64,000 nt of DNA from Paratinospora sagittata (lineage: Eukaryota; Streptophyta; Magnoliopsida; Ranunculales; Menispermaceae), in assembly GCA_035771175.1 (NCBI GenBank), contig CM069604.1, forward strand, positions 16,307,115 through 16,371,114. The letters are read 5' to 3'. A model generated the notes under the pieces. The model ran no database searches. It was not told the DNA's origin and worked only from the letters and a program-made list of their open reading frames with translations. This document shows positions 16,781-42,185 of this stretch, in pieces. The position numbers and the translations under genes are program-made. Position 1 is the first letter of the stretch. Every line of letters starts with the position of its first letter.

Positions 16781-16934
16781 GGCTTGCGGTGGAGGGTTGG
16801 GGATGGTCTAAACATTCATGTGTGGAAAGATCCTTGGTTCCCAAGACCAATCACTTTTAAGGTCTTATTTCCACCTGTTGATGGCATAAGCAGGGTTGTA
16901 GATCTCTTAAATCCATCAGGCAGAGCATGGAATG
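16781..16934 (+). pseudogene. LINE reverse-transcriptase C-terminal segment
   Basis: One plus frame reads RWRVGDGLNIHVWKDPWFPR followed by VDLLNPSGRAW, the conserved block just before the zf-RVT domain in plant LINEs. It starts abruptly (5' truncation) and is cut at 16934 by the MULE. The next residues, beginning NVTLINSIF, are at 41195 onwards. Confidence 0.75.
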
Positions 16935-17365
16935 GGGATTTTTAGAGTTTGGGTCGTGCAAGTTTTGGTTTTTATAGCAGAGGTCCCAAGTTTTTGAAAT
17001 TTAGATTTTGGGTCATCTGCAACTTATTGGTCATCTTTTAATCAAATCGTTGTGACTCGGTTGGCATGCTTGGCTGTTTTGCCCCACTCCCTAATAGCAA
17101 CTCACGTGACCCCTTCGGTAATCAGAGAGACCACATCGGTAAAAATAGAAACCAAAGAAATACCCTAATTGCTACCACTAATCGATCACTGATAACTAAC
17201 CGATCGGTTACCTATCAGTAACCGATCGGTAACTAACATTCTGGCAGAACGGTCACCGATCGGTGATCTATCATTTACCAAAGAGCTATCGGTGATCGAA
17301 CGGTTAAGCAACGGTGTGAACATATAAATATATAAGTAGGAAGAAGAGATCATCGATCAGTAAAG
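16935..17365 (+). repeat. Left terminal inverted repeat of the MULE
   Basis: It matches the reverse complement of 40641-41194 from the outer GGGAT through GAAGAAGAGATCA, with small indels. The inner half contains several CCGATCGG palindromes. Confidence 0.85.
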
Positions 17366-17578
17366 AAATATATAACCGGTTACTATACGGGGACCGACTG
17401 GTTAATAACAATCTGGGAATCAATGATAAAGGCTTATTAACCGATCGGTAAGAACCTATATCGACCGATTAGTTTTAAATCGACCGGTAAGAACCTTAAC
17501 CTATAGGTGAGTTTCAAGGATCATTCTTTTTTTTTTTAATATTTATCTTACATTTCGTAATTCTTTTAGGGATTTAAT

Positions 17579-17925
17579 GGGACCGCTAATTAACCGATCA
17601 ATATGATTGTTAACCGATCAGTAAGAACATATAACGTTCGGTTAGTTTTTAACACATGGACCATTGACCGATCGGTTAAGAAATTTAGTGGGGATCGTTA
17701 ATTAACCAATCAGTATGATTGTTAACCAATCGGTAAGAACCTACACTGATCGGTTAGTTTTTAACACATCGATCGTTGGCCGATTGGTAACTGATCAGTT
17801 AAGAAATTTAGTGGGGATCGTTAATTAACCGATCAGTATGATTGTTAACCGATCGGTAATAACCTACATCGATCGGTTAGCTTTTAACAGATAGATCGTT
17901 GACCGATCGGTTAAGAAATTTTGTA
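17579..17925. repeat. Subterminal tandem repeat (~120 bp x 3) with CCGATCGG palindromes
   Basis: Three units start near 17579, 17693 and 17813. Each contains (g)gggatcgttaattaacc, a run of four or five ACCGATCGGT-like sites, and ends ggttaagaaatttagt. It lies between the left terminal repeat and the end of the ULP1-like gene. Confidence 0.75.
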
Positions 17926-18074
17926 CCAAGCGAACACTAATAAGGAACTAAGAAAGGAAAAAATCACATTTTATGAACTTACATTAAGACTCTAAACTAA
18001 CATTAACAAAATAACATTTTAGAAAACTCGACCAAATTTTAAATTATTACAACGGATTAGTTGGTACAAAAATC
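17926..18074. other. 3' flank of the ULP1-like gene
   Basis: AT-rich sequence downstream of the stop codon. The palindrome sites stop at about 17925. No poly-A signal is distinctive. Confidence 0.4.
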
Positions 18075-18257
18075 TCATCCTGTGTCTTTTACAGTCGTCC
18101 TCGGTTGCTCCAAAGGACAATGATTTTCCAGAAGAAAACATTCAATGAACTTTAAAACAAAAATTCCACAATCTGAGAAATTGGGCTGCATTGGCAAATC
18201 CTTCTGTACTATGATCTCCCACAGAAACATGCCGACATCCTGGATAATTCCTGCGTA
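18075..18257 (-). pseudogene. ULP1-like gene, last exon with catalytic Cys
   Basis: An acceptor (cacctattatag) is followed by a 60-codon exon ending in TGA at 18075-18077. It contains MQPNFSDCGIFVLKFIECFL. In the C48 family the Cys of DCG is the nucleophile and the Gln six residues before it forms the oxyanion hole; both are present. The catalytic His-Trp and Asp blocks normally lie upstream and are not found. Confidence 0.7.
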
Positions 18258-20291
18258 CTATAATAGGTGTAACATTTTCAATCCAGAAAAGGACAAAAAA
18301 GGGACATGATTGACATTATGAGAAAAGTCTACGAAGAAAAAATGAGAAAGGACATAGTGGGTATTTTTTAAAAAGAATTTTCTCGAGATATATCATGATA
18401 AAGGATATAATTGGTATTTCTTCAAAAGAATCTTCTCGAGAACATTCTCGAGAAATTATGCATAATTTCTTTTATAGTCTATCATGTGTGTGTTTGCTCT
18501 GCTTAAACCTCCTGTTTCATTTTTACAATGAGTTCTGAACATGTCACTGTTGTGATGATTGCTATCTTTCTATCTTTTATTTCTATTTTAGTGGTTTACT
18601 ATATTTGAATGATTGATTTACTTGAATTTGTGTGATTGCTATATTTCATATTCATACTACACACACTAATCACTGTTCAAAATTTGCTTGATTCATGCTC
18701 TGATATGCCTACTTATATATTTGTAAAATTCTCGAATATTTTTGTTGCATATCTATGCTGCTTTCATGAACATGATTATCTGTCATCAGTAATGTTGTCT
18801 TGTTCATATTTCCAGATAAACTACATCTTGATAAAATTTTACTACGACTAATGCAATTATCAGTTTATTGGTGACATATTTCTTGACTAGTCACATTTAT
18901 CTTGAGTATCTGATATGCCTATCAGTGACTGTCTGATAAATATCATGATTGTATACTTATCTCGCATCTCATATAATATCATGATTATTTATGCTAACTT
19001 GAACTTGTGATATTTAATTATCTGATGATCAGGTAACACAATAGCTAGGTTGTGCTTTAAGTGTATATATTTTGCCTATGCTAGTTCACATCATGATCAT
19101 GCCTGCTCTAAACTTAGCAAATCTTATCTATGCATGATTCATGTTTTTGCAAATGTATATAGGCCATGCATACAACTCTGTATCATACGCCTATACCTTA
19201 AACAAAATAGTGCCTACACTCATGATTAGTATCTTTTGATATTATTCTTTCAATGATTTCTTGATTTTGATGCATCTGCTTCAGACTATATCAAGATTGC
19301 ATCAAATTCTTGGATATCTGATTTCTATTGAGTACATAACCTTTCAGATGTTCTCTCATTAGAATCAGTGAATCAAACAATCTAGGCCATGCTTTAATTA
19401 AAATTACTTGCCTAATTTTTGGTTTAGTGAATGTATGCTATTGCTCAAATGCCTTCTATGAAACTTAGCATATATTCAACATGTTTAGACTTTGATACTT
19501 GGTATCAGCATGTTTATCATATATATCCTCACATGTCTAAACTATGGAAAGTCTATAATTTTCCATCTCACATGCCATTGATGTTGCTCCGTAATATTAT
19601 ATTTTTATGCATCAATTGACTGTGATTTTTTATGTCAGATAGATGCCATGAATTTCAACTATATACTTTGCATCTTATTAGAATTATAATAGCTAGGACC
19701 TGCTATATCATAAATTCTTTGCCTAAGCTATAAGTATGCTTGTGCTTGTTCATTTAGATATCTTAAAGCATACTCTGTGTTTGGTTTGGTTTAATTATCA
19801 AATTTACATTTATGCCAAATACTAAGGAGAATAATTGCCCACGATTAAAAATTCTCTATGAATTCATTTATGGGCAATTCTTTCTCGATCCCTCTGACTT
19901 CGATTCTCGGCTACGTTTTTTTTTTGTGAAATGTTTTCCAATATTAAACAGCCTATGAATAAGTCAATCTATTTCTCACTGAGCTTATAATCAAGATCCT
20001 TCTCTCTCGTGATAGTAGACCTTACGCATTCTCACGTACCTAACTATAACACGATGTCATACATCATCTTGAAGATGAATGCACAAAGTAAGGGGGAGCT
20101 TCACTACTCTACTCATCATGAGGGTTGATCTTAGTCCCTTTTTCTTCACTTTTTGATGATATCAAAAGGCAGAGAAGAAAAGTAGAAAAAAGTAAGGAAT
20201 AAGGGGGGAGAAGAAAAATAACAAAGAGAAATAGTTCAAGGGAAAACCTTTTTGCTTAATATGCTTAATTTTTTGATTTGTTTGTTATCAT

Positions 20292-23090: not shown

Positions 23091-23268
23091 GGCTGCACCT
23101 AGAAGAAGAAGAATTAGAGAAATTAATCAAAAAGGAAAATCACCGCTGGTGCAAGAAATAGACACCGATCAGTAAATAGGTTAACCGATCGGTATATATG
23201 TTTACCAATCAGTTAATATGTTTGCCGATCGGTTATCAATTTTTCAGGAAAAATTTCCCAAGTGTTGC
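23091..23268 (-). repeat. Intron part of a further mini-exon array unit
   Basis: The segment matches the array units at 25.6-28.1 kb: gaagaagaagaattagagaaattaatcaaaa, gctggtgcaagaaatagacaccgatc, then CCGATCGG sites. The copia LTR ends exactly at the exon/acceptor border (ggctg), and a solo LTR starts at its other end (23269). It shows that the array once extended further toward the 3' end of the gene. Confidence 0.75.
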
Positions 23269-24265
23269 TGTGGCAACCCCTCTCCTGGTGACGTCACGAC
23301 CGGCACAGAATACTATATACGCTATACCTAGACGTATACGATACTCTGTCAGCCTCTTGCTTTAGAACAATACCACAAAATCACTAAAAGTTTAGGCAGA
23401 ACCTCCCCTTAAATTTGAGGTTCCACAAAAATTCCTGATAATCACATCCAATCACACAAAGACATATAATCAAATAATCAACATCATTCATATCAAACCC
23501 ATTCATTTTGCTTTCTCTCATGACTTATCTACATCTCAAGTCATGCCCAAAACCAAACAAACCACAACTATCTATGTTTTATGTACATAAATACCTGTGA
23601 TAGTTATATAAAATTTACAAAAGAAAAAAATAGTTAAAACTAGTCCCAAGTTTCCCAAAAATATACAAACCAAAACCTATGTTCAAAAGAAAAAGAGGAA
23701 GGTTGCACAGACTCTAAGCCTTGCCCTTTCCTTTCTGATCTGAACCTGAAAAAGTAGGGGAAAATGGGGTGAGCTCAACTAGCTCAATGAGTAAGTTCTC
23801 ACAATATATTTTCATATATGCATTTATAAAAAAAACAAGTATGATATTGAAAATTTCATTCATAAACTAAATGCATCAAGAAAAGTCATATTATACATGT
23901 GTTTAAACTAAGCATGTGAATTATGCATCATTTCCATAAAAATCAAATATGCAGACTCTTTACCAAAAGGATATGTCAGAATAACACATGCCTTTACTTG
24001 CCCTATTAGCCAATAGGTTCCGACCGGCGCGTTACCCGACACTAGTCTCCTAATCTTTCTACCCTTACATTCCTCAATGATTCGGAAAGTCCTTTCCACA
24101 TAACATCAACCCAAGTATTCCGGCTACACATTTCCCTGAAGAATAAGTAAATAGAAAGACAACAATGCCAAGATATTTAACCCAAAACACCCAAGGCAAT
24201 ACCAATGCATATATTCCATGCTCATGCTCTTAAATCACAATGCACACACACACACACACACACAC

Positions 24266-24298
<33 letters not shown>

Positions 24299-25615
24299 AG
24301 ATGCATGCCATTACACAAACCAATTTTTATGAATAAAATGCCATAATGGAAAACAAAGGTGAGAAATACTCACAACCAATTCACTAGTCAATTTCACACA
24401 TCATTTACATTCCAATTGGCTAATTGATCATACGCAAATGATCAATTTCAGTCAATTATGTCTAAATACATAATTATTAACCCAAATCACATCTAATCCA
24501 CACCAATTTGGATTAGAAACACTTAACACCGTTCAATTGACCAATTTCAATCTAAATGCCTCAAAAGTACCAAATTAGATAAATCTCTACATGGTCAAAT
24601 TGAACTAACTCATGCAATTCCAACACTAGTCTAACCATTATAAACCCACAACTTCACTCAATTTGGGTTCAATTAGGCAAGTCTCAAGTCAATTTAATCA
24701 ATTGACTTGATTTAGGTCAAAAGCCCCAATTTTGGGCAAAATCCCGAAATCAAGCCCTAGGCTAATTTTACACTACACCTAGGCTTTCCACCATTCAAAA
24801 TTAGTGAATTGGATTATCAATCACTTAGAATCAGTCTATTCAACATAGTTGACATGCAACTTGAATAGAAAACCCTAAGTTCATTTTCTAGGTTTAGGGC
24901 CATTACACTTACCTCCACAAAAAACGTGGTAAAGTGCTTGCAAAATGCACATTGGGTATAGATCTAGGTCAAGGAAGTTGTTTCTACCATAAGCAAGCTC
25001 AAAATAGCAAAATACCAACCAACCATAGGTTAGGAATACCCAAAACTGTGACCTATGGAGAAAATTACACCATTAGAAAGCTTACTCTCACCTTCAATGG
25101 TGATTTCATGGAAAGAAATGGAGAAAAACACTTACTTCGAGGTATAAATGGTGAAGACTTCCTCTTGAAACCCTAGTTTTCCTACATTCTTCCTTCTCCA
25201 ATTTGTTCCCAACTCAAATAAGGATAGTAGCAACTTTTCCCTTTTATAAAATACTGATTTTTGGCCATTTTTCACTAAAAAAAAGGTCCAAAAATCATGA
25301 TCAATGCCCTCCTTTAGCGCAAGAGCGTCCTCCCTTAGCCCAAAACACTCATTTTTCATTTCGCTACTACGCGTTCAATACACATTGGAATATTGCGTAT
25401 AGCCAGTCGATTTCTATGTTAAGACACGTTCCAAACTCATTTTTAATATCCCTATTTCCATTTGACGCACCAATAATTAATTATCATGTAAAAACGTCAA
25501 ATACATACACAAAACATGCAAAATACGAGTATTATACACATCAAATACATACAGAAGTCCTAGAGTCAGACATTCTACATCATCACAAAATTATATGCAA
25601 AAGTGGGTCAATACA
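23269..25615 (-). mobile_element. Solo LTR (gypsy-type) in the mini-exon array
   Basis: It starts TGTGGCAACCCC and ends GGGTCAATACA. A 5-bp duplication gttgc/gttgt is at 23264-23268 and 25616-25620. There is no internal domain. On the minus strand it shows the LTR landmark of a ..CTCA(T/C)TGAG.. block followed by a CT-rich TTTCAGG motif. It contains a (CA)n(TA)n microsatellite at 24239-24298. Confidence 0.7.
24239..24298. repeat. (CA)n(TA)n microsatellite
   Basis: Alternating ac repeats, a few catac units and then at repeats, inside the solo LTR. Confidence 0.95.
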
Positions 25616-25620: not shown

Positions 25621-28290
25621 GATAAAAAAAAATTAATTTACCTTGGAGGGAGGAGGTGGAGGGGCGGAGGGAGCATCATTAGTCCTCCTCTCGGTGGTTG
25701 GCTGCAAGCAGAAGAAGAAGATTTAGAGAAATTAATAAAAAAAGAAAATCACCGCTGGTGCAAGAAATAGGCACCGATTGGTAAAATAGGTTAACCGATC
25801 GGTATATATGTTTGCCGATCGGTTATCAATTTTTAAGGAAAAATTTCCAAGTGTTGCAATAAAAAAAAATTATTTTACCGTGGAGGGAGGAGGTGGAGGA
25901 AGTGGAGGGGCGGAGGGAGCATCATCAGTCCTTCTCTCTTTGGTTGGCTACAAGCAGAAGAAGAAGATTTAGAGAAATTAATCAAAAAGGAAAATCACTG
26001 CTGGTGCAAGAAATAGACACTGATTGGTACAATAGGTTAACCGATCTGTTATCGATTTTTCAGGAAAACTTTCCAAGTGTTGCGATAAAAAAAAATATTT
26101 TACCTTGGAGGGAGGAGGTGGAGGGACGGAGGGAACATTATCAGTCCTCCTCTCGTTGGTTGGCTACAAGCAGAAAAAGAAGATTTAGAGAAATTAATCA
26201 AAAACAAAAATTACCGCTGGTGCAAGAAATAGACACCGATCGGTAAATAGGTTAACCAATCGATATATATGTTACCGATCGGTTAATATGTTTACTGATC
26301 GGTTATCGATTTTTCAGGAAAAATTTCAAGTGCTGTGATAAAAAAAACAAATTATTTTACCTGGGGGGGAGGGGGTGGAGGAGGTGAAGGGAGCATCATC
26401 GGTCTTCCTCTTGGTGGTCGGCTGCAAGCAGAAGAAGAAGAGTTAGAGAAAGTTATCAAAAAAGAAAATCACCATTGGTGCAAGAAATATACACCGATCG
26501 GCAAATGGGTTAACTGATCGGTATATATGTTTATCGATTTTTTAGGAAAAATCTTCAAGTTTTGCGATTAAAAAAAACAAATTATATGAGAAAGTGGGTC
26601 GTTACAGTTGCGATAAAAAAAAAATTTTACCTTGGAGGGAGGAGGTGGAGGGGCGGAGGGAGCATCATCAGTCCTCCTCTCTGTGGTTGGCTGCAAGCAG
26701 AAGAAGAAGAAGAAGATTTAGAGAAATTAATCAAAAAAGAAAATCACCGCTAGTGCAAGTAATAAACACCGATCGGTAAATGGGTTAACTGATCGATATA
26801 TATGTTGATCGATCGGTTATCGATTTTTTAGGAAAACTTTCCAAGTGTTGCGATTAAAAAAAAACAAATTATATGCAAAAGTGGGTCGTTACAGTTGCGA
26901 TAAAAAAATATATTTTTACCTTGGAGGGAGGAGGTGGAGGGGCGGAGGGAACATCATCAGTCCTCCTCTCAGTGGATGGCTGCAAGGAGAAGAAGAAGAA
27001 GAAGAAGAAGAAGATTTAGAGAAATTAATCAAAAAAGAAAATCACCGCTGGTGCAAGAAATAGACACCGATCGGTATATATGTTTACCGATCGATTATCA
27101 ATTTTTCAGGAAATATTTCCAAGTGTTGCAATAAAAAAAAATTATTTACCTTGAAGGGAGGAGGTGGAGGAAGTGGAGGGGCGGAGGGAGCATCATCAGT
27201 CCTCCTCTCGTTGGTTGGCAGCAAGTAGAAGAAGAAGATTTAGAGAAATTAATCTAAAAAGAAAATCACCGCTGGTGCAAGAAATAGAGACCTATTGGTA
27301 AAATAGGTTAACCGATCGATTATCGATTTTTCAGGAAAAATTTTCAAGTGTTGCGATAAAAAAATATATATTTTACCTTGGAGGGAGGAGGTGGAGGGAC
27401 GGAGGGAGCATCATCAATCTTCCTATCGTTGGTTGGCTGCAAGCAAAAAAAGAAGATTTAGAGAAATTAATCAAAAATGAAAATTGTCGCTGGTGCAAGA
27501 AATAGACACCGATTGGTAAATAGGTTAACCAATCGGTATATATGTTTACCGATCGGTTAATATGTTTACTGATTGGTTATCGATTTTACAGGAAATTTTT
27601 TCAAGTGTTGCGATAAAAAAAAATTATTTTAAGTCGGGGGGAGGAGGTGGAGGAGCATCATTTGTCTTCCTCTCGGTGGTTGGCTGCAAGCAGAAGAAGA
27701 AGAAGAAGAATTAGAGAAATTTATCAAAAAAGAAAATCACCACTGGTGCAAAAAATAAACATCGATCGATAAATAGTTTAACTGATCGGTATATATGTTT
27801 ATCGATCGGTTATCGATTTTTTAGGAAAACTTTCCACGTGTTGCGATAAGAAAAACAAATTATTTTACCTAGGGGGAGGAGGTGGAGGGGCGGAGGGAGC
27901 ATCATGAATCCTCCTCTCGGTGGTTGGCTGCACGCAGAACAAGAAGATATAGAGAAATTTATCAAAAAAGAAAATCATCACTGGTGCAAGAAATAGACAT
28001 TGATCGGTAAATGGGTTAACCGATCGGTAATCAATTTTATAGGAAAAATCTCTAAGTGTTATGATCGAAATAAAATTATTTTACCTTGGCGGGAGGAGGG
28101 AGCATTCTTAGAGGTTGGCTGCACACAGAACAGTGACAATTAGAAAAAATTACCAAAAAAATAAAATCAGCGATTGTGAAAGAATAAGATACCGATAGGT
28201 AAATATATATACCGATCGGTTAAATATATTTAATGACAGGTACGTCTTTACCGATAGATAAAGTCGACTTACCAATTATAATTAATTTTT
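25621..28290 (-). repeat. Tandem mini-exon array of the ULP1-like gene (11 units, 211-289 bp)
   Basis: Read on the minus strand each unit is: intron with two to four CCGATCGG-type palindromes, a pyrimidine tract (ctaaatcttcttcttctg), cttgcag acceptor, mini-exon, and gtaaaa donor. Exons are at 25642-25701, 25879-25947, 26104-26163, 26361-26421, 26631-26690, 26920-26979, 27150-27218, 27377-27436, about 27634-27683, 27869-27927 and 28085-28118. Most are 60 or 69 nt, phase 0, and encode PTTERRTDDAPS followed by a Pro run and SK. Damage: 26361 copy is 61 nt, 27869 copy 59 nt, 28085 copy shortened to 34 nt; 27150 copy has lost its acceptor AG and 27634 copy its donor GT. Intron and exon are duplicated together, so I read it as amplification by unequal crossing-over. 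Confidence 0.8.
26631..26690 (-). CDS. Representative intact mini-exon (unit 5)
   Basis: Sixty bases between a cttgcag acceptor and a gtaaaa donor. In phase 0 it encodes 20 residues, PTTERRTDDAPSA then PPPPPSK. Identical or near-identical peptides come from the units at 25642 and 26920. The 69-nt units at 25879 and 27150 add three residues in the Pro stretch. The peptide looks disordered and proline-rich and resembles no domain I know. Confidence 0.65.
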
Positions 28291-28295
28291 TTTAC

Positions 28296-28370
28296 CTGTG
28301 GGGGAAGAGGTAGAGAATGAGCCATTGTGCCAACATCGGCAAGCATTGAGAGGACATTATCGATGTTTTC
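28296..28370 (-). pseudogene. ULP1-like gene, exon before the array (possible founder)
   Basis: It is flanked by an attgttaagcag acceptor and a CAG|GTAAAA donor. The 75-nt, phase-0 exon encodes ENIDNVLSMLADVGTMAHSL followed by PLPPQ. Its Pro-rich end and donor resemble the mini-exons, so it may be the ancestor or an older relative of the amplified exon. Confidence 0.55.
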
Positions 28371-28755: not shown

Positions 28756-31622
28756 TGTCACGACCCACTATATGTGACGTCATGGCCGGCACGAAAACCT
28801 TCAGGTATACCCTCCGTGGGTACGCCCGGCGTCCCGTCAGCCTAAAACACATATACGAATCCCCAAAATCAAATACAGTACAATCCTAAAAACATCCATT
28901 TAACATGATCATAAATGAAATAAAATATTACATCTCCAAGTTACCAAATATAAAATTTCAAAGTTTACAAAATACTACAAACCCAACACATCCCAACTAT
29001 GTGTTAATTATACATATACTAGGTGTTATCGTGTACATAATTATCAAATTACAAAATTAAATGTACAACACCTACGTGAAACAAAAACAAGGGAAGCTAC
29101 GCAGTCAAGCCTTCCCTTTTCCTTTTCTATCAGATCCTGAAAGAAGAAGGTGAGGTGTGAGCTACAACCCGCTCAGTGAATGTCATTTACAAGTGGCATA
29201 TACGTGCATTTAATAAAAACATGATAAGATCATAAATCATTGAAATATCATGATGACGAAATAGATTACATACATGCTAACATAATGGATCAAGTCATAC
29301 ATAAGACGATGTATAACATTAGTAATCATACTTATGCAATCCTAACACCTCCTGAGTACGGGGGTTCAAGGCTGGTGCGCTACACATAGTACCTGCACAC
29401 ACACACAATACTCGTATCCTAATAGGATTTTTGGGGTTGTGCAGCACGTAAGATTAGCCTAAACTAATCTACCCATAAACAAGCCATAAAACCCTCTGCA
29501 AGGTACACAACTGGGATCGCCGCTAGACTTATGAGAATTCCCAAAAAGAGAAAATTCCAACTAGGAGCCTCAACCCAAATTGTCATCCCAATGAATTATG
29601 CTCAAATGTATTTCATGGAATATTAAAACATGCATACCATTATACATAAGCATTTAAAACATTTCTATACTACAAAGTCACATATAAATAATCCAAAAGT
29701 AATAGAACACTCACTCTTGATTGGCTAAGTCTGCCCAATCCAATTACCAACACTCTCCAATTGACTAAACGGGTTCAAGATCAATCACAAGACCTTGAAA
29801 TAACATGGTTCACACAACTGAAAATTAGTCATAAAGTGTGTCAAAACCCCATGTTCAAACCCAATCTAAAGTCAATTAGATTCTAAATTGATTACCCCCT
29901 TGAGCCAATTTCCATATTGCCCAACTTGATCATTTAGACTCAATTAAACTAAGATTGACCTTAATTGAATGTAATAGGGTGATCCCATGATCCAACCACT
30001 AATATACATGACATTCAATTATAATTAGGGTTATACATCAAGTCAATTTCATCAATTAACTAAGTCTTGGTCAAAATCCCCAATTAGGCCAATATAAAAC
30101 ATAAGATCAAAATGAACTAAGTCATATCAATTTAACATAGGTTCTAATATTTTAAACCCATGATTCTACTCGATTTGGGTCCAATTAAACAATCCCCAAG
30201 TCAATTTCATAAATTGACTTGCTTTGGGTCAAAAGTCCCAATTTGGGCAAAATCCCCAAATTACATGCAAAATTGCCAAAGTACATGAAAAATGCCAAAT
30301 ACTTAGCCTAGATCAAAATTAGTCAACCTTAGGGTGTCCATTATGAGAACCCACTGAATTCAATCATCAAACAACCCTAATCATGTCCAATTAGACCTAC
30401 ATTGCATAATTTTCCAGATTTTATATCAAGAGCATCAAAAGCCCCAAATCTGGAAATTTTCATACGTAGGCCATATTATCAATTTTACACTAGGCCACCA
30501 TGTTCAGCCATGAATTTTACTGATCTTGCAACATGGAATCATCCACAATGGCCACTAGGTCAACATAGTTGACATGCAAAGATTTTGAAAAATTCTAAGG
30601 TCATAAACTAAGTATAGGTCATTTGAACTAAACCCTTCCAATTTCTTGTTATAAATTGGGGGTTTCACCATTAGTGTACTCCTAACACTCTCTAATCACA
30701 CATATGTGACGTGCAAGACTCAACTCCAACTTTGATTTTCCACTCATCCAAGGTTCATCACAATGCATGCATCAAAATGAAACCCTCATGCTCAAAATAA
30801 AGCTATCATGCAACTAATGGAGAGATTCAAGAAATGAAGGAAAAATGCAAACCTTAGGTGTTCTTGAGCAAGAAACCACCAAGCCCTGATTTTTCCGCTC
30901 CTTTCTCTCCTCCAGAACTTCTCTCCTCTTTCTCAAGTGCAAAATGTGCAAATGAGCTGAAAAAATCGAGTCAATAGCCTATATAGAAGTGTTTGGGCCC
31001 ACAACTAAAAGTTGTCAAAAAGTGTTAAAAAATCAATTTTTCTGTTGCAATACTTTCACTTAGATAGTCCAATTTCATGCACAGTACTCACTCATTTAAC
31101 ATCCTAACCGTTTAAAAGTTGCATGATTCTGTTACTAACATTCTGGTAAACGTTCAAAACAGTGGGATTGCGAGATGTAATTGTTTGATCAAAACTGCGA
31201 AAGAAAATTCAAAAATTCGTGAAACAGTGTTTGGAGTCTTATAACTCACAGTAGGTAACTCCGATCAAGATCTTCACTGTTCATAATAAAGATCTATCAG
31301 ATACGAATGAGCTGACAAAATTTCAGCTCAATCAGACCATGGATATAGGAGATCAAACCATTGATGTAATTTGTGATAGAAATTTCTTCCTCCATGGAGC
31401 GAGCTCCACTGGATCCAAAACACCGTTTTTTCCATGTTTTGACGTCGAACGGGTCTCCGATGGTTCCAAAACTTCATGCACACTTTTTATGACCTAAAAT
31501 CATGCAAAGACACTTGAACTTACGTGCTTCGAGTATCAAAATACATATACACATACGTATACGAGTACTTTACGGGTACACTATGGGTCAAAATGACGTC
31601 ACCTAAAGGCACGGGTGCTACA
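28756..31622 (-). mobile_element. Solo LTR (gypsy-type, TGTCACGACC family), copy A
   Basis: It starts TGTCACGACCCAC, ends GGGTGCTACA, and is flanked by tctac (28751-28755 and 31623-31627). It is 2.87 kb and closely related along its whole length to 35502-38358. No primer site, no coding domain and a single LTR indicate LTR-LTR recombination. Read on the minus strand it ends GGGTCGTGACA like many gypsy LTRs. Confidence 0.8.
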
Positions 31623-31639: not shown

Positions 31640-31920
31640 CTAAAGTATTGGAAAAGTATGGATATCAGTAATGAAAATACGAAATGACAAATAACAGGAA
31701 TATAATAAATTGTTAACCGATCGGTAAGAATATTTATCGATAAAAAAACTAGTTAACCGATCGGTTTACTGACGGTAAAAAGACCTCGATGGGTAAAATT
31801 TTGTTAATTGATCGGTTAGAATATTTATCAATAAAAAAATTGGTTAACCGATTGGTTTACTGATGCTAAAAAAACCAAGATCGATAATTAAGAATTAATC
31901 GAGATGAGAAAAACTTATAC
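31640..31920 (-). other. Intron of the ULP1-like gene with palindrome sites
   Basis: The intron lies between the donor at 31919-31920 (GCG|GTATAAG) and the acceptor at 31640. It contains several CCGATCGG sites and variants near 31712, 31757 and 31850. Confidence 0.6.
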
Positions 31921-32358
31921 CGCCGTAGTAGCTCCATGAGTTGCTTGAGGGGTAGAGAAAACGCGGTAGTACGAATGCTCTCTTGTATAAGGACGTTTGT
32001 TGGAAAAATTTGGGACCAAATGTTGCAGTAAAATTTTCACATCCTATAGGTCGTCTGCCATAACAAGGATGACACGACTCATAACTTTAACCGCATTGGC
32101 TGGTACATCGAAAGCCTTAGGATGAACAGTTGCAGTTGACACTCTAGGCTCCCTACTTGCCTGGGGCGGTTCTTCTTCCATAGCAACATCCTGTTGCTTT
32201 TTTGCAATATTTTCCGGGGCAATATTAGAATTTGCCCCCTCTCCATGTTCCTCCTGCTCTTCCTCTTCTTCATCTTCAGCTTCATCTTCATTTTCAATGT
32301 CTAGTTCCTTAATGACATCTTGTCGATCATCATCATTGAACAAAGAGCCCTTGTACAT
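31921..32358 (-). pseudogene. ULP1-like gene, exon 2 (acidic region)
   Basis: The acceptor tttgtgtttctgtag is followed by 146 codons: MYKGSLFNDDDRQDVIKELD, a Glu-rich stretch (EDEAEDEEEEEQEE), then a less charged part. One internal TAG after MADDL interrupts it. The same frame then continues as DVKILLQHLVPNFSNKRPYT to the donor at 31920. The acidic linker is typical of the region between DUF1985 and the protease domain of such genes. Confidence 0.6.
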
Positions 32359-32906
32359 CTACAGAAACACAAAGCACATTAAGAAACATAACGGTTCAGG
32401 TAATAAAATCACCAAACGGTAAATAAATAAAACATCGATCGATAAAATAATTAAACCGATTGAAAACCGATCGGTGAGCTAAACCGATCGGGAAATAAAA
32501 TCAACCGAAAAGTTACGATGCTCAAAAGTGTGGGAAAATCAAAATTCAAATATGCAATTAACCGTGCAAGAAGAATGGTCACCGATCGGTGTCCAATCGG
32601 TAATAAAAATCATCCAACAGTTGAATAAGATATTGATAGGTAATTGATTCAAAAGCATTCAAAATTTTAAATTCGAAAACTAAATTAATCGCGCGGGTGG
32701 GGTAAAGTTAACCGGGCAAAGAAACACCAATAAAGAAAATTCTAAAAGGGAAGAATGGTAACCGATCAGTGTCCATTCTGTTATAAAAATCACCGTTCGA
32801 TTTAATAAATATACCGACCAGTGACAAATCGGTTATAAAAAATGACCAATCGATTATATAAATTATTGATCAGTCATCGACCGGTAAATTATTTTTAGGA
32901 GCGAAC
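32359..32906 (-). other. Intron of the ULP1-like gene with palindrome sites
   Basis: It contains multiple CCGATCGG sites and one-base variants (about 32430-32500, 32580-32620, 32760-32890). The 5' donor is AAG|GTTCGC, a weak match. Confidence 0.55.
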
Positions 32907-33533
32907 CTTTGAAGGGTCAGATAGGACAGGAAATTTTTTTTCAGTCCTTTTTATATGCCTTTGCGTGTACTTCAGTATCCTTGGAAAGTTTGTCAAAGTC
33001 GTCAAGGGTTCCAAGGACGGAAACCTTTCATACACCCAGGCTTGCAACGCATGAACACATCCATATATATTGTATCTTTTCTTCTCGCACTGCGATTTCG
33101 TCGATGCCAAATTGTCTATTAAATAACCATACACAACGAGACCCTAGTGATAGTCCCTACACCTCTGGACGTCATCAATCAATGCAATATATTTCGTTGA
33201 AAGGGAGTGGTGAGTATCAGGAATAAAAAATGAGGCTAACATGTACATGTTAGCGAGCTTTTTGAAGTTGACGTCCGATAAGTCGGTGGTCTGAAGAGCA
33301 GGCAAAATATGTTTGGCCTTAACCTTGTGACTCGAAGATTCGCCGTCAAGGGGGAGCAATTTCTTTATAGAATCCAAAATTGAATCTTGAGGTGCATCCG
33401 TGAAGGTTGATTTGCGGACCTTCAACCCAAGAACAAGTGCAACATTGACCTGTTTTAAAGAAAGTTTGTTTTCCCCCAGATGGAAAACACCGTTGCCCTT
33501 ATACCCCGCAACAAAACAAACCGAAGACCTCAT
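32907..33533 (-). pseudogene. ULP1-like gene, first exon with DUF1985
   Basis: The frame from the Met at 33533 reads FHLGENKLSLKQVNVALVLG and, after one TAG where a Trp is expected (DYH*G), continues YGYLIDNLAS and YNIYGCVHALQAWVYERFPS. The FxxGxxxLxxxxxALVxGL block and the G..ALQ.W.YE block are characteristic of DUF1985 in plant ULP1-like transposon genes. Upstream of 33533 the homologous frame seems to continue (SDAKKKLLDDEVFG) after a frameshift, so the true start may be near 33620. Confidence 0.65.
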
Positions 33534-33699
33534 CGTCTAATAACTTCTTTTTCGCATCAGATAAACTCCCGTAAAAGCATCAAATTGCATTGCATGATGA
33601 GAGGTTTTGCATCATTCGATCCATTGGTGTGCAGGTGGTAGCAAATGTTAGAAAAAAAGAAGAATTTTTTTCAAACAATAGCATTAGGGGTCAGTACAA

Positions 33700-34571
33700 C
33701 AAATAAAACCCTATTTATAGGAGGGAAGTCAGAACGACTATCTTAAGAATTATCGGTTACTGAGTGATAAACTATCGGTTACTGATCGGTGAAGAAAGTG
33801 GACCGTGAAAATAAGTGGCATAATATTTACCAATACAAATAAGAAATCAGTAGAATTGACTATCGGTTAAAACATCCACTGATTGGTAAATGATCGTATA
33901 AGGTTTTTACCGATCGGTAAGACATCAACAGATCGGTACACAACCGAAAATAATTATCTATACCGATCGGTAAGAACATTGTACCGATCGGTTAAACTAT
34001 TAACCGATCGGTACGCTAACGAATAAGGTATCCACTAATTTACCGATCGGTTAAACTATTAACCGATCGGTACAATGTTCTTACCGATCGGGAGGAAATC
34101 ATACTGATCGATTAATAGTTATCGACGAATTTTCTGTTTATTATTTTATTATTAAGCATTATCTAATTTTTGATTAAAATCATTTAAACAACTATGAATG
34201 GAAAAGAAATATTAAAAAAAAAATGAAAAAGATTCTGTGCACTTAGATGCCTTATCAGTACCCAATCGATAATATTTATATCGTTCTGTTTATAATTTTA
34301 TTATTAAGCATTATCTAATTTTTCATTAAAATAATGTAAACAACTACGAAATGGACAAGAAATATTAAAAATAAAAAGAAAGTAATTTGCTGCAACAAAC
34401 TCCCTTGATCGGTAATTACAATGAACAATTGACCGGCTGGTTAAAAATAGTGCATCAGTTAAAACATCCACTGATCGGTTAATTTTCCTACCGCTCGGAT
34501 AAGGTTGTTACCGATCGGTTACAAATCAAACTGATCGGTTGATAAACGGTAATTATAAACTAGTGCTTCTA
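33700..34571. promoter_or_regulatory. Intergenic region between transposase and ULP1-like gene, dense in CCGATCGG
   Basis: It is 5' of the ULP1-like gene and 3' of the transposase. More than ten CCGATCGG sites or one-base variants are present (for example about 33910, 33961, 33983, 34003, 34042, 34061, 34082 and 34510). 33961-34091 forms a large inverted repeat. Confidence 0.55.
33961..34091. repeat. ~50-bp inverted repeat made of palindromes
   Basis: The left arm reads CCGATCGGTAAGAACATTGT followed by two more palindromes. The right arm has the inverse order and ends ACAATGTTCTTACCGATCGG. The small spacer between the inner palindromes is itself inverted, and the loop is about 28 bp. Confidence 0.75.
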
Positions 34572-37500
34572 TTACGTTGGTTTTTTGCATGTCCTGCAGT
34601 TATGGCCATAGCCACCGCATCTACCACACTTTACATGACTTATTTCACCTTTAGATGGTATACGACACTTGGCCCTTAGGAGGAAGTGCAAGAAGACAGT
34701 CAGATGGTTGTGGCCACTGACTCTTGTCTAGCGTGGGATGAAAAAATTTCGAATATGTCATCTTGTATGTCGCAGTCATGAAGTAATTTTTGCAAAGCGA
34801 ATACACATTATGATTATGATAGGCTATGGCGGCCATTACATGTGAACAAGGTAAACCATCAATGTACCATCGATTGCATGTGCATGATCTTAATCGCAAA
34901 TTCACGTGATTTGTTTTGAACTCGGTGTCAATGCCATATTCCATGTTCCCATACGCAATCACAGACTTGCGGCGAAACCATTCAGTAATAGCATGAAAGT
35001 GCTCTTGCACCCTTGTTGGAACCACACCATTCATCTCTTCTGTTTTACAATGACGGTTATAATGATATTCTGCAACACAACGTCGAATTGTTTCGATCAT
35101 CTTCACCTGTGGTAGAGATCTTGCGAGCTTTAACACATTTCTGTAGCTCTCGAAAAGGTTTGTGGTTAATAAATCATATCTTCGACCTGGGAACATGGAA
35201 CTTGCCCAATGATTTGGTTCTGAGTCCATAATCCACTTAACCACATCTGAACCACATTGTACTTGTATTTTACCAAGGACATTATTCCATTTCATAGGTG
35301 TATATGTTATAGCCAAAGCCTAAAACAATTTTCGAGTAGTGTCATCTTTGAAGGCACTGTAAAGATTTTGGGTTAAATGTCGAACGTAGTATGTATGATG
35401 GACATTGGGCAAGATTGTTGGTACGGTTCATAGTAAACCTTGATTCCTATCAGATATCAACACAAATTAAGCATCATGACCAGTTATTCTATCTATAATG
35501 ATGTCACGACCCACTCTACGTGACATCATGACCGGCACGGGAACCTTCGAGTATACCCTCCGTCGGTACACCCGACGTCCCGTCAGCTCTCGAATACATA
35601 TACGAATCCCCAAATAGAAATAAAAGTAATCCTTAACAACCAACTAACATGATCATAATGAAATAAAATATTACTTCTCCAAATTTTACAAATATAAAAT
35701 TCCAGAGTCTTCAAAATGATACAAAACCCAACACATCCCAACTATGTGTTAAATATACAATTACTAGGTGTTATCATGTACATAATTATCAAAATATAAA
35801 ACTAAATGTACAACACCTACATGAAACAAAAACAAGCGACGCTCCGCAGTCAAGCCTTCCCTTTTCCATTTCTATCAGATCCTGAAAGAAGATGGTGAGG
35901 TGTGAGTTACAGCCAGCTCAGTGAATGTTATTTACAAGTGGCATATACGTGCATTTATAAAACATGGTGAGATCATAAAACAGTTGAAATATCGTGATGG
36001 TGAAATAGATTACATACATGCTAACATAATGGATCAAGTCATACATAAGACGATGCATAACATTTGTAGTCATGCTCATGCAATCCTAACACCTCCTGAG
36101 TACGGGGGTTCAAGGCTGGTGCGCTATACACAGTACCTGAACACACACACAATACTCGTATCCTAATAGGATTTCTTGGGTTGTGCAGCACGTAAGATTA
36201 ACCTAACTAACCTACCCATGCACAAGCCATAAAACCCTCTGCCAGGTACACAACTGGGATCGCCCCTAGACTTACGAGAATTTCCAAAAAGAGGAAATTC
36301 CAACTAGGAGCCTCAACCCAAATTGACATCCCAATGAATTATGCTCAAATGTATTTCATGGAATATTAAAACAAGCATACAATTATACATAAGCATTTAA
36401 AAAATTTCTATACTACAATGCCACATATAAATATTCCAAAAGTAAAAGAACACTCACTCTTGATTGGCTAAGTCTAGCCAATCCAATCACCAAAACCCTT
36501 CAATTGACTAAACGGGTTCAAGATTAATCACAAGACCTGGAAATACCATGGTTCACACAACTGAAAATCAGTCATAAAGTGTGTCAAAACCCCATGTTCA
36601 AACCCAATCTAAAGTCAATTAGATTCTAAATTGATTACCCCCTTGAGCCAATTTTCATATTATCAAAACTAAGATTGACCTAACTTGAATGTAATAGGGT
36701 GATCCCATGATCCAACTACTAATATACATGAAATTCAATTATAATTAGGGTCAATTAGACTATACATCAAGTCAATTTTATCAATTGACTAAGTCTTGGT
36801 CAAAACCCCCAATTAGGCCAATATAAAACATAAGGTCAAAATGAACTAAGTCATATCAATTTAACATAGGTTCTAATATTTTAAACCCATGATTCTACTC
36901 AATTTGGGTCCAATTAAACAATCCCCAAGTCAATTTCATAAATTGACTCGCTTTGGATGAAAAGTCCCAATTTGGGCAAAATCCCCAAATTACATGCAAA
37001 ATTGCCAAGTACATGAAAAATGCCAAATACTTAGCCTAGATCAAAATTAGTCAACCTTAGGGTGTCCATTATGAGAACCCACTGAATTCAATCATCAAAC
37101 AACCCTAATCATGTCCAATTAGACCTACATTGCATAATTTTCCAGATTTTATATCAAGAGCATCAAAAGCCCCAAATTTGGAAATTTTCATACATAGGCC
37201 ATATTGCCAATTTTACACTAGGCCATTATGTTCAACCATGAATTTTACTGATCTTGAAACATGGAATCATCCACAATGGCCACTAGGTCAACATAGTTGA
37301 CATGCAAAGATTTTGAAAAAGTCTAAGGTCATAAACTAAGTATAGATCATTTGAACTAACCCTTCCAATTTTTTGTTAGAAATTGGGGGTTTCACCATTA
37401 ATGTACTCCTAACACTCTCTAATCACACATATGTGACATGCAAGACTCAACTCCAACTTTGGTCTTCCACCCATCCAAGGTTCATCACAATGCATGCATT

Positions 37501-39092
37501 TTGAAACCCTCATGCTTAAAAAAACACTAGTATGCATGAACCAAAAAGATTGAAGGAAGAACAATGAGGAAAAACATGCAAACCTTAGGGATTTTGTGCA
37601 AAATCCACCAACCCTAGGTTTCCTCTTCTTTTCTCCTCTCCAACTGCTTTCTCTCTTTTCTGGCTGAGAAATGAGCAAATGAGCCTAAAATTACGTTTTG
37701 GTTGCTAAAATAGACAAGCTTGGGCCCACATCTAAAAATTGCTAAAAACTATCAAAAAATCAATTTTTTTGTTGCAATACTTGCACTTAGATAGTCAATT
37801 TCTTGTAAAATACCCACCAATTTAATATCTTAACCGTTCAAAAGTTGCATGAGTCAGTTAATAACATTTTGGTAAACTTTCAACTCAAGCCAACGATGGG
37901 ATTACGATATCTAACTGTTTAATCAAAACTGCGTAAGAAAATCAGAAAATCTGTGAAACAGTGTTTGGAGTCTTATAACTCATAGTAGGTAACTCTGATA
38001 AAGATCTTCACCGTACATAATTAAGATCTATCATATAAGAATTAGCTGAAAAAACTTCAGCTCAATCGGACCACGGATCTAGGAGATCAAACCATTTATG
38101 TAATTTGTGACAGAAATCTCTTCCTCCATGGAGAGAGCTCCACTGGATCCAAAACACCGTTCTCGACATGTTTTGACGTCGAACGGGTCTCCGATGGTTC
38201 CGAAGCTTCATGCGCACTCTTAATGACCTAAAATCATGCAAAGACACTCGAACTTACGTGCTTCGAGCATCAAAATACATATATACACATATGTATACGG
38301 GTATGCTGCGGGTACACTATGAGTCAAAATGACGTCACCTAAAGGCACGGGTGCTACGAATGATCTCTAGGAACCACTTCCAACTTTCAGCGCTTTCTGA
38401 CTCGACCATAGCAAACGCAATAGGAAATATGCATTTTTCACCATCATACGCAGTAGCAATCAACAAATGCCCAAGATATTTTCTTCTTAGGTGTGTCCTA
38501 TCAACCAATAGAATGTTGCGCATAGTACCCAAATAGGCTCTTACAGTTGGACCAAAAGCCCAAAACATCCTGTTAAATGTGTTATCATTGTTAATGTCAA
38601 GTGCTAAAAAAATATGGGGATCCACACGTTGCAACTCCAAGAAGTAACGAGGTAAGTCCCTAAAAGACTCTTCCCACTTACCCAATACTTGATATGTTGC
38701 CATTTCTTTTGCATACCATGCCTTAAAATAGCTCAATGTCACTCTAAACTCTTTGCTAAAATCAGTTTTTATCTTAGCAGGTGTGTATGTAGGATGATTG
38801 GCAAGACAGTCCCTAATCCATAGAGCAATATAGGAACATTTGGCATTACAATGTCCACACCGCGAAACGGGAAAGAGCAAGTGTGCTTAGGCTCATATCG
38901 TTTGATCGTGAAACGATTCCAGACAATGGATGCATGTATCCTCCACTGACAATTTCCATTAATGCATCTTGCAGATACAACACCTGACTTCATCTTGGTA
39001 CCCACATACTCATAGTTCTTGTACATGGCATTCTCTCTCAATGCTCTTACAAATGCTTGCTTGTTTGGCCGACAATAAAATCTCATTTCCAT
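34572..39092 (-). pseudogene. MULE transposase (MURA/FAR1-like), split by a solo LTR
   Basis: Part 1 (39092-38359): FYCRPNKQAFVRALRENAMY and CQWRIHAS..RYEPKHTCSF (MuDR N-terminal domain), then, after a frameshift, LLVDRTHLRRKYLG and AFAMVESESAESWKWFLE (MULE DDE domain). Part 2 (35501-34572): ISDRNQGLL (second Asp), RHLTQNLYSAFK, the SWIM zinc finger CTCNRWYIDGLPCSH, and a terminal CX2CX4HX4C knuckle, CGRCGGYGHNC..C. It would cut the element at its terminal repeats. There are stops near 35320 and 35430, frameshifts near 38850 and 34660, and a 2.86-kb LTR at 35502-38358. An acidic, poorly conserved stretch lies upstream at 39093-39370. Confidence 0.85.
35502..38358 (-). mobile_element. Solo LTR (TGTCACGACC family), copy B, inside the transposase
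   Basis: It starts TGTCACGACCC, ends GGGTGCTACG (the final CA has mutated to CG), and is flanked by aatga (35497-35501 and 38359-38363). It is almost collinear with copy A. Its insertion interrupts the transposase just after the catalytic Glu region. Confidence 0.8.
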
Positions 39093-39500: not shown

Positions 39501-39960
39501 GATTATAAAAATAATCGATCGGTAAATAAAGATCAAACAAATTACCGATCGGTAAATAGAGATAGATAAATAATCGATAAGTAATTAATGATAAAAGGAA
39601 CTAACACTCGGTAAGTAACGATTACAAAATAACCGATTGGTAAATAATCTTCGAACAAATACTGATCGGTAAATAGAGATAGATAAATAATCGATCGGTA
39701 ATTAATGATCAAAGGAACTAACGCTCGGTAAGTAACGATTACAAAAATAACCGATTGGCGAATAATGTTCAAACAAATTACCGATCAATAAATAATCTTC
39801 AAACAAATTACCGATCGGTAATTAATGATCAAAGGAACTAACGTTCGGTAAGTAAGGATTACACAAATAACCGATCGGTAAATAATGTTCAAACAAATGA
39901 CCGATTGGTACCAATCGGTAAATAACGAATATACAAATAACAGATCAGTAATGCAGATTA
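39500..39960. repeat. Tandem repeat (~120 bp) with CCGATCGG sites near the right end of the MULE
   Basis: Units contain aaccgat(c/t)ggtaaataa, ttcaaacaaattaccgatcgg, taattaatgatcaaaggaac and taac(g/a)(c/t)tcggtaag. Starts are near 39508, 39640, 39759 and 39868. Confidence 0.75.
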
Positions 39961-40640
39961 CGGTAAGGATTGGACATGATGGATGATTTTTCACTCTATC
40001 AGTTCAAATCTGTGCATGGGTGAGTAGTGCGTAAAGAGTGAGTAGTGTATGTAGTAAAGTTCAATAGGTATGGCAAAGCTCGCATAAGAGGTAATACCAT
40101 CTCCCTTTAATTTTCACAAGCAGTGGACTTACCATTTTTGATAAGTGCAGCGATATGCAACGATGGCTCGAAACCTCTAACGATATGCAATGCCTGGATC
40201 TGGAGTGATATTAACGATATGCAACGCCTGGATTGGTCGAAAGCTCTTTGTAAATGAAGATGCTCTTTGTTGTTAATGAAGAGGGGTAATATACTTTTCC
40301 AATTCAACATGACATTGAGGAGACGAGTTTCTGTCAAGTGGTACGGTACACTTAACTTACCGGGGAGATAACTTAAAAAATGGTAAGGTAGCGGTATCCG
40401 CCCGGTCACAGATTGAAAATTTCATAACCGACTGAAATGATTACCAATAATTAACCGATCGTTTACTGTGTCATGATTGATTTGCTTCTTCGTTCCTTCG
40501 ATTATTGCTAACCGATTGATCACCGATCGGTAATAGTTCGTTTGATGTCTAACCGATCGGTAACCGGTCAGGGGTATTGCACGATCATTAGGAAATAGCA
40601 AGTTGGGTAGAATGCTCGGTTGGTTTCCTTGGTTTCCCTT
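39961..40640. other. MULE right subterminal region
   Basis: Upstream of the transposase. It contains a short duplicated block (cgatatgcaa..gcctggat at 40184 and 40216) and CCGATCGG sites near 40526 and 40554. An open minus frame at 40107-40409 has no recognisable similarity. Confidence 0.45.
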
Positions 40641-41194
40641 TTTACCGATCAGTGATCTCTTCTTCCTCCCTATAGATTTATAAGTTCACACCACTGCTTA
40701 ACTATTCGATCACCGATAGCTCTTTGGTAAATGATAGATCACCGATCTGTGACTGTTTGGCCAGAATGTTAGTTACTGATCAGTGATATGTCGGTATGTC
40801 GGTTAGTTATCGGTGATCGATCGATAATCGGGCAAGGTATCGCACGATCGTTAGGAAATAACAATTTGGGTCGAATGTCCGATAATAACCGATAAATCAT
40901 CGATCGGTGATTGTTTGGGCAGAATGTTAGTTACCTATCGGTGATCGATTAGTGGTAGCAATTAGGGTATTTCTTTGGTTTCTCTTTTTACCGATGGGAT
41001 CTCTCTGCTTATAGAGGGGGTCACATAAGCTGCTATTAGGAAGATGGGCAAAACAGTCAGGCACGCCAACCGAGTTACAACGATTTGATTGAAAGATGAC
41101 CAATGAGTTGTAGAGGACCCAAAATCTAAATTTCAAAAACTTGGGACCTTGCTATAAAAACCCAAACTTTCAGGACCCAAACTCTAAAATTCCC
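40641..41194 (-). repeat. Right terminal inverted repeat of the MULE
   Basis: It is the reverse complement of the left repeat and contains an extra ~140-bp segment with palindrome sites around 40780-40900. It ends aaaattccc at the target duplication. Confidence 0.85.
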
Positions 41195-42185
41195 CATGGA
41201 ATGTGACTCTTATCAATTCCATCTTCTCAAGAGATGATGCGAAAATCATTAAGGAAATCCCCATTTCCTTCTCTTCTTGTCCTAACAAACTGGTGTGGCA
41301 TTATAGCAAGTCTGGCATATACAATGTGAAATCAAGATATGATTTAGCCTTTCAACTATCAAAAAGTGGCTTAGTTGGCTCGACAGCCTATGGGACCTCT
41401 AGTGCTCAAGAATATCATCCAAAAGGTGTTGCTATTATCTGGAAGTTAAATATTCCAAATAAAACAAAATTCTTTATTTGGAAATGCTACCATGGTCTAC
41501 TCCCTGTTAAGAAGTTACTGCTAGCCAGTAGCATGATTATTAGCCTTTTTTGCCCCTTGTGTGATGATAACCATGAGAAAATCTTCCACTTATTTGTCTA
41601 CTGCAAATTTGCACATGCCTTATGTTTTGCTTCCCCATTTGGCCTTGATATTAGATGCCTCCCTTTTTATTCTTTTCCTGATTTTTGGGATTTTCTATGG
41701 AAGACCTTCACTGATAATGGTTGTGTATTGGACTACTTATCTTGGTTTGCTTGTGCCTTGTGGCATTTATGGAAGACTAGAAACGCAAAACTTTTTAAAG
41801 ATGCTCATTTCTCTCCTCTTGATGTTATCAATAAGGTTAATGCCCAGTTATAGGAATTCTCTTGCAGTTTGAGGCATGAGCCATCTAGAGAAGCTCTCCA
41901 ATGTAGCAGACAACAACTAATATCTTTTCCAACCAGCTGGAATCTATTCTACGATGCAGCATGGGACTCTAAATCCCTTAAGACTGGTTTGGGTTGGGTC
42001 CTTGTGGATGATCGAAACCTTGTTCGTATGGAAGAATGCTGAACTGAGAATGGTGTTCTCTATGTAGAAGACGCAGAAGCCAGAGCTATTCATCGCGGAT
42101 TGTTATCTATTTCAAGTTGTGATATCGACTCCTTGCAGGTCCTCTCGGATTCACTGATGGTGGTAAATAACTGCAGAAAGATAGC
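41195..42185 (+). pseudogene. LINE zf-RVT domain and RNase H (first part)
   Basis: The frame 41203-41853 contains KLVWHYSKSGIYNVKSRYDL, KLNIPNKTKFFIWK and a zinc-binding CPLCDDNHEKIFHLFVYC, which together are zf-RVT. After a stop at 41851 the frame continues with RNase H: FYDAAWDSKSLKTGLGWV (first Asp), EDAEARAIHRGL (Glu), LSDSLMVVNN (Asp). It is cut at 42185 by the copia element; the rest of RNase H is at 49487. In the LINE these domains would remove RNA during second-strand synthesis. Confidence 0.85.

Follow-up and report, generated by a model that had tools for sequence, protein, structure and literature searches.

Why should a transposon-borne protease gene carry a long series of short, similar exons? 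The question is raised by a 64,000-nucleotide stretch of the Paratinospora sagittata genome (GCA_035771175.1, contig CM069604.1, positions 16,307,115 to 16,371,114; the window), in which exon-like blocks lie in tandem within the ULP gene of a Mutator-like element (MULE). We read the array as the variable middle of a KIU/VANC-like ULP gene, in which a linker exon and candidate anti-silencing sites would be amplified jointly (probability roughly 0.55). Eleven blocks were present on the minus strand from 28118 to 25642, as described in a first-pass annotation made from the sequence alone, and comprised one short first exon and ten internal exons. Tandem Repeats Finder (TRF) detected the array as a tandem repeat, and the array segment had matches at numerous places across this 1.29-Gb genome (121 match rows, with 40 of 81 first-look candidates scored); the array is therefore not a chance arrangement. 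The block spacing was 191–289 bp, so that the eleven units of the first-pass annotation stood while its lower size bound of 211 bp did not. Its usual exon lengths of 60 or 69 nt applied exactly to 7 of the 11 blocks, and 8 of 11 lengths were divisible by three; exon ends were placed by script, and individual lengths may be off. The AG acceptor and GT donor it had assigned to the units were each found in 10 of 11, with one TG acceptor and one TT donor as exceptions. The exon preceding the array was in phase 0, as proposed. In coding order, the blocks were as follows.

28296..28370, minus strand: 75-nt phase-0 exon (by reading) directly ahead of the array (ENIDNVLSM...)
28085..28118, minus strand: mini-exon 1, specialised (PTSKNAPS...), 34 nt in the window copy
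27869..27927, minus strand: mini-exon 2, 59 nt
27633..27683, minus strand: mini-exon 3, 51 nt, donor TT
27377..27436, minus strand: mini-exon 4, 60 nt
27150..27218, minus strand: mini-exon 5, 69 nt, acceptor TG
26920..26979, minus strand: mini-exon 6, 60 nt
26631..26690, minus strand: mini-exon 7, 60 nt, PTTERRTDDAPSAPPPPPSK
26361..26421, minus strand: mini-exon 8, 61 nt
26104..26163, minus strand: mini-exon 9, 60 nt
25879..25947, minus strand: mini-exon 10, 69 nt
25642..25701, minus strand: mini-exon 11, 60 nt

The array recurred across the genome with a constant architecture and a variable size. In total, 158 mini-exons were measured in 17 sequences, representing approximately 15 insertions; five of the 121 nhmmer matches, which aligned to the model's 3' part alone, were dropped. 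The consensus of the internal units (95 units, 11 sequences) consisted of the tract CTTCTTCTTCTGCTTGCAG, a 60-nt exon CCAACCACCGAGAGGAGGACTGATGAGGCTCCCTCCGCCCCTCCACCTCCTCCCTCCAAG and the donor GTAAAATA, the exon being translated in phase 0 as PTTERRTDEAPSAPPPPPSK. Among the 116 mini-exons of the 11 fetched sequences, 88 had a length divisible by three, 96 an AG acceptor, 112 a GT donor and three a stop codon, and 66 combined correct length, AG, GT and no stop. Six further sequences contributed 42 mini-exons (29 divisible by three, 33 with AG, 41 with GT, three with stops). Of the 17 sequences, 13 had a specialised short first exon (e.g. PTSENAPS...) and 15 had a distinct last exon (e.g. PTLRSARSDDVPSSTPLPPPQ). 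In arrays with both ends, the number of internal units was 2 (C20c), 6 (C5b, C20a, C20b, C24 and C25b), 7 (C23a), 9 (C7), 10 (C5a), 11 (C16b, and at least 11 in C9a) or 12 (C13a), the arrays of C9a, C13a and C25b being interrupted by insertions. Unit number thus varied from 2 to 12 in complete arrays, confirming the expectation that it differs between element copies. In the divergent copy C23b, 63-nt exons were found in six of nine units. The loci C6 and C11 (L035 and L036) combined an open Ulp1 exon with mini-exon arrays of longer exons, some of which still looked out of frame by eye.

The assembly appears to contain both haplotypes. Loci C13a and C25a are alleles (96.8% identity over 7.5 kb, C25a aligning to C13a solely from C25a base 7854 onward), and C9a and C21 look allelic, sharing a stop and an AT donor. 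Unit number was equal between haplotypes in all four pairs compared; in C5a, one exon differed by 9 nt (62 versus 53). Given this agreement and the presence of the array at many genome places, an origin in assembly or annotation error is extremely improbable.

The position of the array within the gene was also constant. Counting haplotypes apart, an Ulp1 exon lay downstream on the same strand at 33 of the 36 strongest array places (based on the 41 strongest of 121 array rows and 58 of 117 Ulp1 rows), and an N-terminal PMD/DUF1985-like open reading frame (ORF) lay upstream in those copies inspected for it. Related elements with the array between N-terminal domain and protease, which the first-pass annotation had called for, therefore exist. 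The Ulp1 (Peptidase_C48) domain was identified by PF02902 in the window fragment (E 6e-9) and in locus C7 (3e-12). On the minus strand, the coding order was transposase pieces, PMD/DUF1985-like ORF, acidic exon, array and Ulp1 end.

33144..33536, minus strand: N-terminal ORF of the ULP gene (PMD/DUF1985-like domain), sharing 87% identity across 124 aa with the ORF of locus C13a
31921..32358, minus strand: acidic exon (MYKGSLFNDDD...), which in the window copy contains an in-frame stop (by reading)
18060..18269, minus strand: Ulp1 (Peptidase_C48) C-terminal fragment with the DCG motif, PF02902 E 6e-9

The N-terminal domain, previously named DUF1985, required a more cautious label. The window ORF had no Pfam match at E ≤ 0.1, and the ORF of C13a matched PMD alone, at 14.6 bits and under the cut-off, with no DUF1985 match. 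In a relative (L037), PMD scored above its cut-off (44.8 bits versus 34.9) and DUF1985 below (27.7 bits, E 3e-6, versus 35.1). The L037 ORF (352 aa, 446–1504, minus strand) joins a MULE transposase-like piece to PMD, probably via an internal deletion. Genome-wide, 50 DUF1985 matches were obtained from the 150 of 169 candidates scored. Two of these, both under the cut-off, adjoin arrays of the mini-exon family (C24 and C12). Two others, over the cut-off, precede distant Ulp1 matches by approximately 6 kb (C18 at about 33.53 Mb and C5 at about 41.02 Mb, by eye), and DUF1985 upstream of Ulp1 on the same strand thus exists in more distant elements too. In these two regions (genome G000, C18 near 33526074–33532754 and C5 near 41012675–41019229) the Ulp1 matches had 39–44% identity, with DUF1985 on the same strand; they are possible KIU-like relatives.

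The introns of the array carry a second repeated feature, missed by the first-pass annotation, which suggests another driver of amplification. The palindromic motif ACCGATCGGT, a 10-mer identical to its own reverse complement, ranked first in frequency among the element's listed 10-mers. Exact copies numbered 32 in 11,615 element bases and 0 in the 50,180 other window bases (chance expectation 0.01), and at up to one mismatch all 73 window copies fell in element blocks. None of these one-mismatch copies lay in the listed coding blocks, where 17.7 would be expected under an even spread. At up to two mismatches, the arrays of 11 loci contained 317 copies between exons and 0 on mini-exons, with 2–4 copies in 100 of 105 array introns (range 1–6). 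Neighbouring copies (<80 bp, within arrays) were 19–22 bp apart in 204 of 210 pairs, about two helical turns. Clusters also occurred in other non-coding parts of the window element (strand not applicable).

25794..28220: motif clusters in the array introns (2–4 per intron, up to two mismatches, window locus)
17199..17911: motif cluster in the 3' non-coding part
31716..34519: motif clusters in other introns and between the two genes
39544..40561: motif cluster upstream of the transposase fragment

A short motif in tandem in an element's own non-coding parts is a VANC/VANDAL feature, present here as ACCGATCGGT. By analogy, the layout resembles the tandem target motifs of VANC anti-silencing proteins in Arabidopsis VANDAL elements.

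The mechanism we propose combines both repeats. The gene would encode an N-terminal PMD/DUF1985-like domain, an acidic exon, a Pro-rich linker built from phase 0-0 mini-exons, and an Ulp1 protease. The amplified unit would be an intron plus an exon, gained or dropped by unequal recombination. As a normal exon has 3n nt, the gain, loss or skipping of a unit would leave the frame intact, and the array would therefore be free to vary while the element is active. The ACCGATCGGT sites, about 20 bp apart in each intron, would be the predicted targets of an anti-silencing factor encoded by the element itself, as VANC is in VANDALs; gaining a unit would raise site number and linker length together. 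A bolder version, in which a selfish element multiplies as one unit the DNA sites recognised by its own anti-silencing protein and a frame-neutral exon of that protein, that is, a co-amplification of ligand and receptor, is put forward tentatively and with some doubt. If it is true, every unequal exchange alters linker length and target-site number together.

Traces of recombination were found in the window array itself. An insertion resembling a long terminal repeat (LTR) element occupies the intron of a window unit, and short remnants of its start were found in two other units, neighbours of each other, at the same intron position; none was found in the other 10 loci at up to three mismatches. 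The remnants in neighbouring units point to unequal recombination within the array, and the simplest reading of the sequence is that the insertion came first and was followed by unit duplication with partial deletion.

23269..25615, minus strand: LTR-like insertion (TG...CA, flanks GCAAC/ACAAC) within the intron of one unit, by reading
26864..26892, minus strand: inside a unit, a short remnant from the start of the LTR-like insertion, ends approximate
26578..26606, minus strand: second remnant of the insertion's start, in the neighbouring unit, ends approximate
23091..23268, minus strand: degenerate extra unit past the LTR-like insertion, with a second insertion cutting the exon after 2 nt

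Unequal exchange could, in principle, also have carried two similar units to any array length with exon and motif both useless. The wide range of array sizes, the near-neutral evolution of the exon over all codons and a motif not conserved above background are in line with such a neutral by-product; the density and 20-bp phasing of the motif across the element's non-coding parts and the residual coding constraint described below are not, and we regard this explanation as unlikely.

Coding constraint was assessed by placing substitutions parsimoniously on a tree that included 95 of the 97 internal units; the introns supplied the rates for each substitution type and sequence context. A name filter removed one window unit and one C17 unit (leaving 9 and 8 there), the parsimony counts are not fully independent, the alleles C13a and C25a were both counted, as they were in the mini-exon tallies of the 11 sequences and in the indel counts, and inter-unit recombination was ignored. 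The first 12 codons were constrained (w, the dN/dS ratio, 0.73, p = 0.042), more strongly in units clean in splice sites and length (0.61, p = 0.009) than in the rest (0.82, p = 0.46); the split into 12 and 8 codons was chosen after the codon-position data were seen. The three-base contrast in the exon frame, 0.64, was equalled by 0 of 65 intron windows in the full and clean sets, and was matched by 5 of 65 in the broken set. Indels were divisible by three in 22 of 48 cases in exons versus 14 of 89 in introns (p = 2e-4). At the splice sites, the donor T had 0 changes versus 4.2 expected (p = 0.016), the donor G 5 versus 8.1 and the acceptor A 2 versus 4.2, while the polypyrimidine tract had 66 versus 105.9 (0.62, p = 2e-5). 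Splicing of the mini-exons to one another, and their translation, are inferred.

Such constraint could mean that the protein alone drives repeat number, with extra Pro-rich units altering the reach or target choice of the ULP and the intronic motif riding along. Mostly frame-keeping exon lengths (117 of 158), the constrained first 12 codons and the specialised first and last exons fit this idea, as do the tandem peptide repeats reported for VANC proteins (PMC5735166). The Pro-rich half, however, lacks amino-acid constraint (w 1.49), and other introns and intergenic parts hold motif clusters as well, where there is no mini-exon. We consider an exclusively protein-driven array rather unlikely.

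A number of results weigh against joint amplification of a coding exon and candidate binding sites. Over the whole exon, w was 0.92 (p = 0.52), with 207 nonsynonymous changes against an expected 312 and 88 synonymous changes against an expected 123. The ratio exceeded 1 in the last eight codons, at 1.49 (p = 0.11) overall and 1.92 (p = 0.036) among clean units. Slippage by triplets within the Pro run could be enough to produce three-base indels. Lengths not divisible by three were found in 28 of the 116 exons of the 11 sequences, and in 0 of 17 sequences was every measured mini-exon clean. The acceptor G changed at the neutral rate (12 versus 11.9 expected), and AA replaced AG at 16 of the 116 acceptors; splice-site constraint thus held for the donor T and failed for the acceptor G. 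The Ulp1 exon, used as a positive control, was weakly constrained too (w 0.80, p = 0.07), and its changes per site (0.59) exceeded those of the 3' non-coding part (0.44, from fewer sequences). No processed (spliced) junction was found genome-wide at up to three mismatches, a search that tests processed copies only, and none in 324,532 fetched bases, where the best match had seven mismatches. The motif positions in introns showed no conservation above background (0.85 and 0.95 of expectation). DUF1985, a VANC domain, scored under its cut-off in this gene family, and no protein relatives were found at E ≤ 0.001 among the 7,983 candidates sharing most words and 470 in a second search.

Overall dN/dS was not significant and was dropped as a proof of coding. 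The Ulp1 exon changed no more slowly than the 3' non-coding part, and hence the copies sampled are mostly decayed; most differences therefore accrued in dead copies, and a modest trace of former coding use persists. On the opposite strand, the acceptor G falls within a CHG context; methylation-linked decay may therefore account for the AA acceptors.

The weak exon constraint, the acceptor decay and the lack of a spliced copy, together with the motif pattern, would also suit a tandem repeat of a motif-bearing intron whose exon-like blocks no longer serve as exons. This reading, amplification at the DNA level only, does not explain why the recurring exon lengths (54, 57, 60, 63 and 69) preserve the frame, nor the unchanged donor T, the constrained polypyrimidine tract and the codon-phase contrast, and appears improbable. 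Joint amplification of linker exon and candidate sites remains our preferred reading.

The element carrying the window array spans 16935–41194. A 9-bp target site duplication, a hallmark of MULEs, and the terminal inverted repeats (TIRs) of TIR-MULEs were both present, as were PF10551 and SWIM domains in transposase fragments; a fuller transposase was found in locus C16b (PF10551, 3e-17). These features and the PF02902 match bear out the first-pass view of a transposon-borne ULP1-like gene. The DCG-bearing protease exon it reported was likewise present, as a C-terminal fragment in the window copy. The fragment corresponds to residues 106–175 of the 175-aa query, so that the domain has lost the part bearing the catalytic His and Asp. 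Insertions interrupt the element at approximately 38.3–35.5, 31.6–28.8, 25.6–23.3 and 23.1–18.3 kb. With a truncated protease and several insertions, the window copy is a dead relic, unable to make the ULP protein.

16926..16934, strand not applicable: target site duplication CATGGAATG, 9 bp, right, identical to 41195–41203
41195..41203, strand not applicable: target site duplication CATGGAATG, 9 bp, left
16935..17200, plus strand: TIR, right end, approximately 265 bp, approximately 89% identical to the left one (derived from the alignment score)
40930..41194, minus strand: TIR, left end in coding orientation
38335..38886, minus strand: MULE transposase domain fragment (PF10551), E 1.1e-8
34651..35319, minus strand: transposase C-terminal part with SWIM zinc finger (PF04434), E 4.2e-7
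28785..31606, minus strand: nested insertion of approximately 2.8 kb within the ULP gene, ends approximate, skipped by alignments to related loci

The insertions at 28785–31606 and 35515–38335, about 2.8 kb each, have very similar ends and look like two members of one family. The 4.8-kb insertion at 18268–23090 sits where the sequence linking the final array exon to the Ulp1 C-terminus would be expected, and a relative of it (81%) was found in locus C9a (L019/L020). In L016 (C16b, 13645/13660), a second element copy seems to begin approximately 12 bases past the end of the first, near head-to-tail. An ORF with similarity to Transposase_32 (putative plant transposon protein) at 8129–9166 on the plus strand of the window has no relation to the array.

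Both VANC-type anti-silencing proteins and their targets have been reported to evolve via tandem repeats (PMC5735166). In the P. sagittata elements, the gene's repeat unit and the repeated candidate target site are one physical segment, present in many insertions with differing unit numbers in a single genome. How proteins of this type and their targets keep pace thereby becomes testable as co-evolution, through a comparison between copies of their motif and unit numbers, methylation and expression.

Arrays of small symmetric exons are known from animals, namely the 54-bp exons of collagen and the PEVK exons of titin. In these too, a repetitive chain is encoded by successive small in-phase exons, whose number can grow without disturbing the frame. 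The likeness is one of logic only: the animal arrays sit in host genes rather than in a transposon, and we know of no cis motif clusters associated with them.

Among plant transposons, the KI-MULE/KAONASHI (KIU) elements of Arabidopsis are, as here, MULEs with an Ulp1 protease gene besides the transposase (PMC13317346, PMC2528002). KI-MULEs are described as non-TIR elements with the ULP gene in reverse orientation to the transposase (PMC2528002). The window element, with clear TIRs and its ULP gene on the same strand as the transposase, is not a KI-MULE in this Arabidopsis sense, and its mini-exon array has no mention in the accessible parts of the KI-MULE/KIU descriptions (PMC13317346, PMC2528002). 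The ULP-bearing TIR-MULEs of melon and grapevine share TIRs and a ULP gene downstream of the transposase with the window element, both orientations being reported, whereas the available portions of their description contain neither tandem mini-exons nor motif arrays (PMC2528002). In the literature covered, mostly titles and abstract openings with few subscription papers, no description of a mini-exon array in a ULP-MULE was recognised.

The VANC genes of VANDAL elements lie, like the gene studied here, beside a MULE transposase, with tandem copies of a short motif in introns and intergenic parts of the same element, and they have tandem peptide repeats and a variable exon/intron organisation (PMC5735166, PMC10398659). 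In Arabidopsis, VANC21 binds YAGTATTAY, which is in tandem in introns and non-coding parts of its own VANDAL, and VANC exon/intron diversity has been tied to tandem repeats (PMC5735166). The motifs differ, being YAGTATTAY or AGTTGTCC/AC for VANC (PMC5735166, PMC10398659) and the candidate ACCGATCGGT here. Unlike VANC, the present gene has an Ulp1 domain, with DUF1985 below and, in a relative, PMD above the cut-off; unlike in the VANC descriptions, as far as their accessible text extends, one repeat unit combines exon and motif. Because DUF1985 is below the cut-off and motif binding is predicted, the gene is KIU/VANC-like and is not filed as VANC. A 2026 review describes KIU as Ulp1-bearing VANC genes, whose elements use their own motifs likewise (PMC13317346), and these Ulp1-bearing forms of VANC are the closest published kind to the gene described here.

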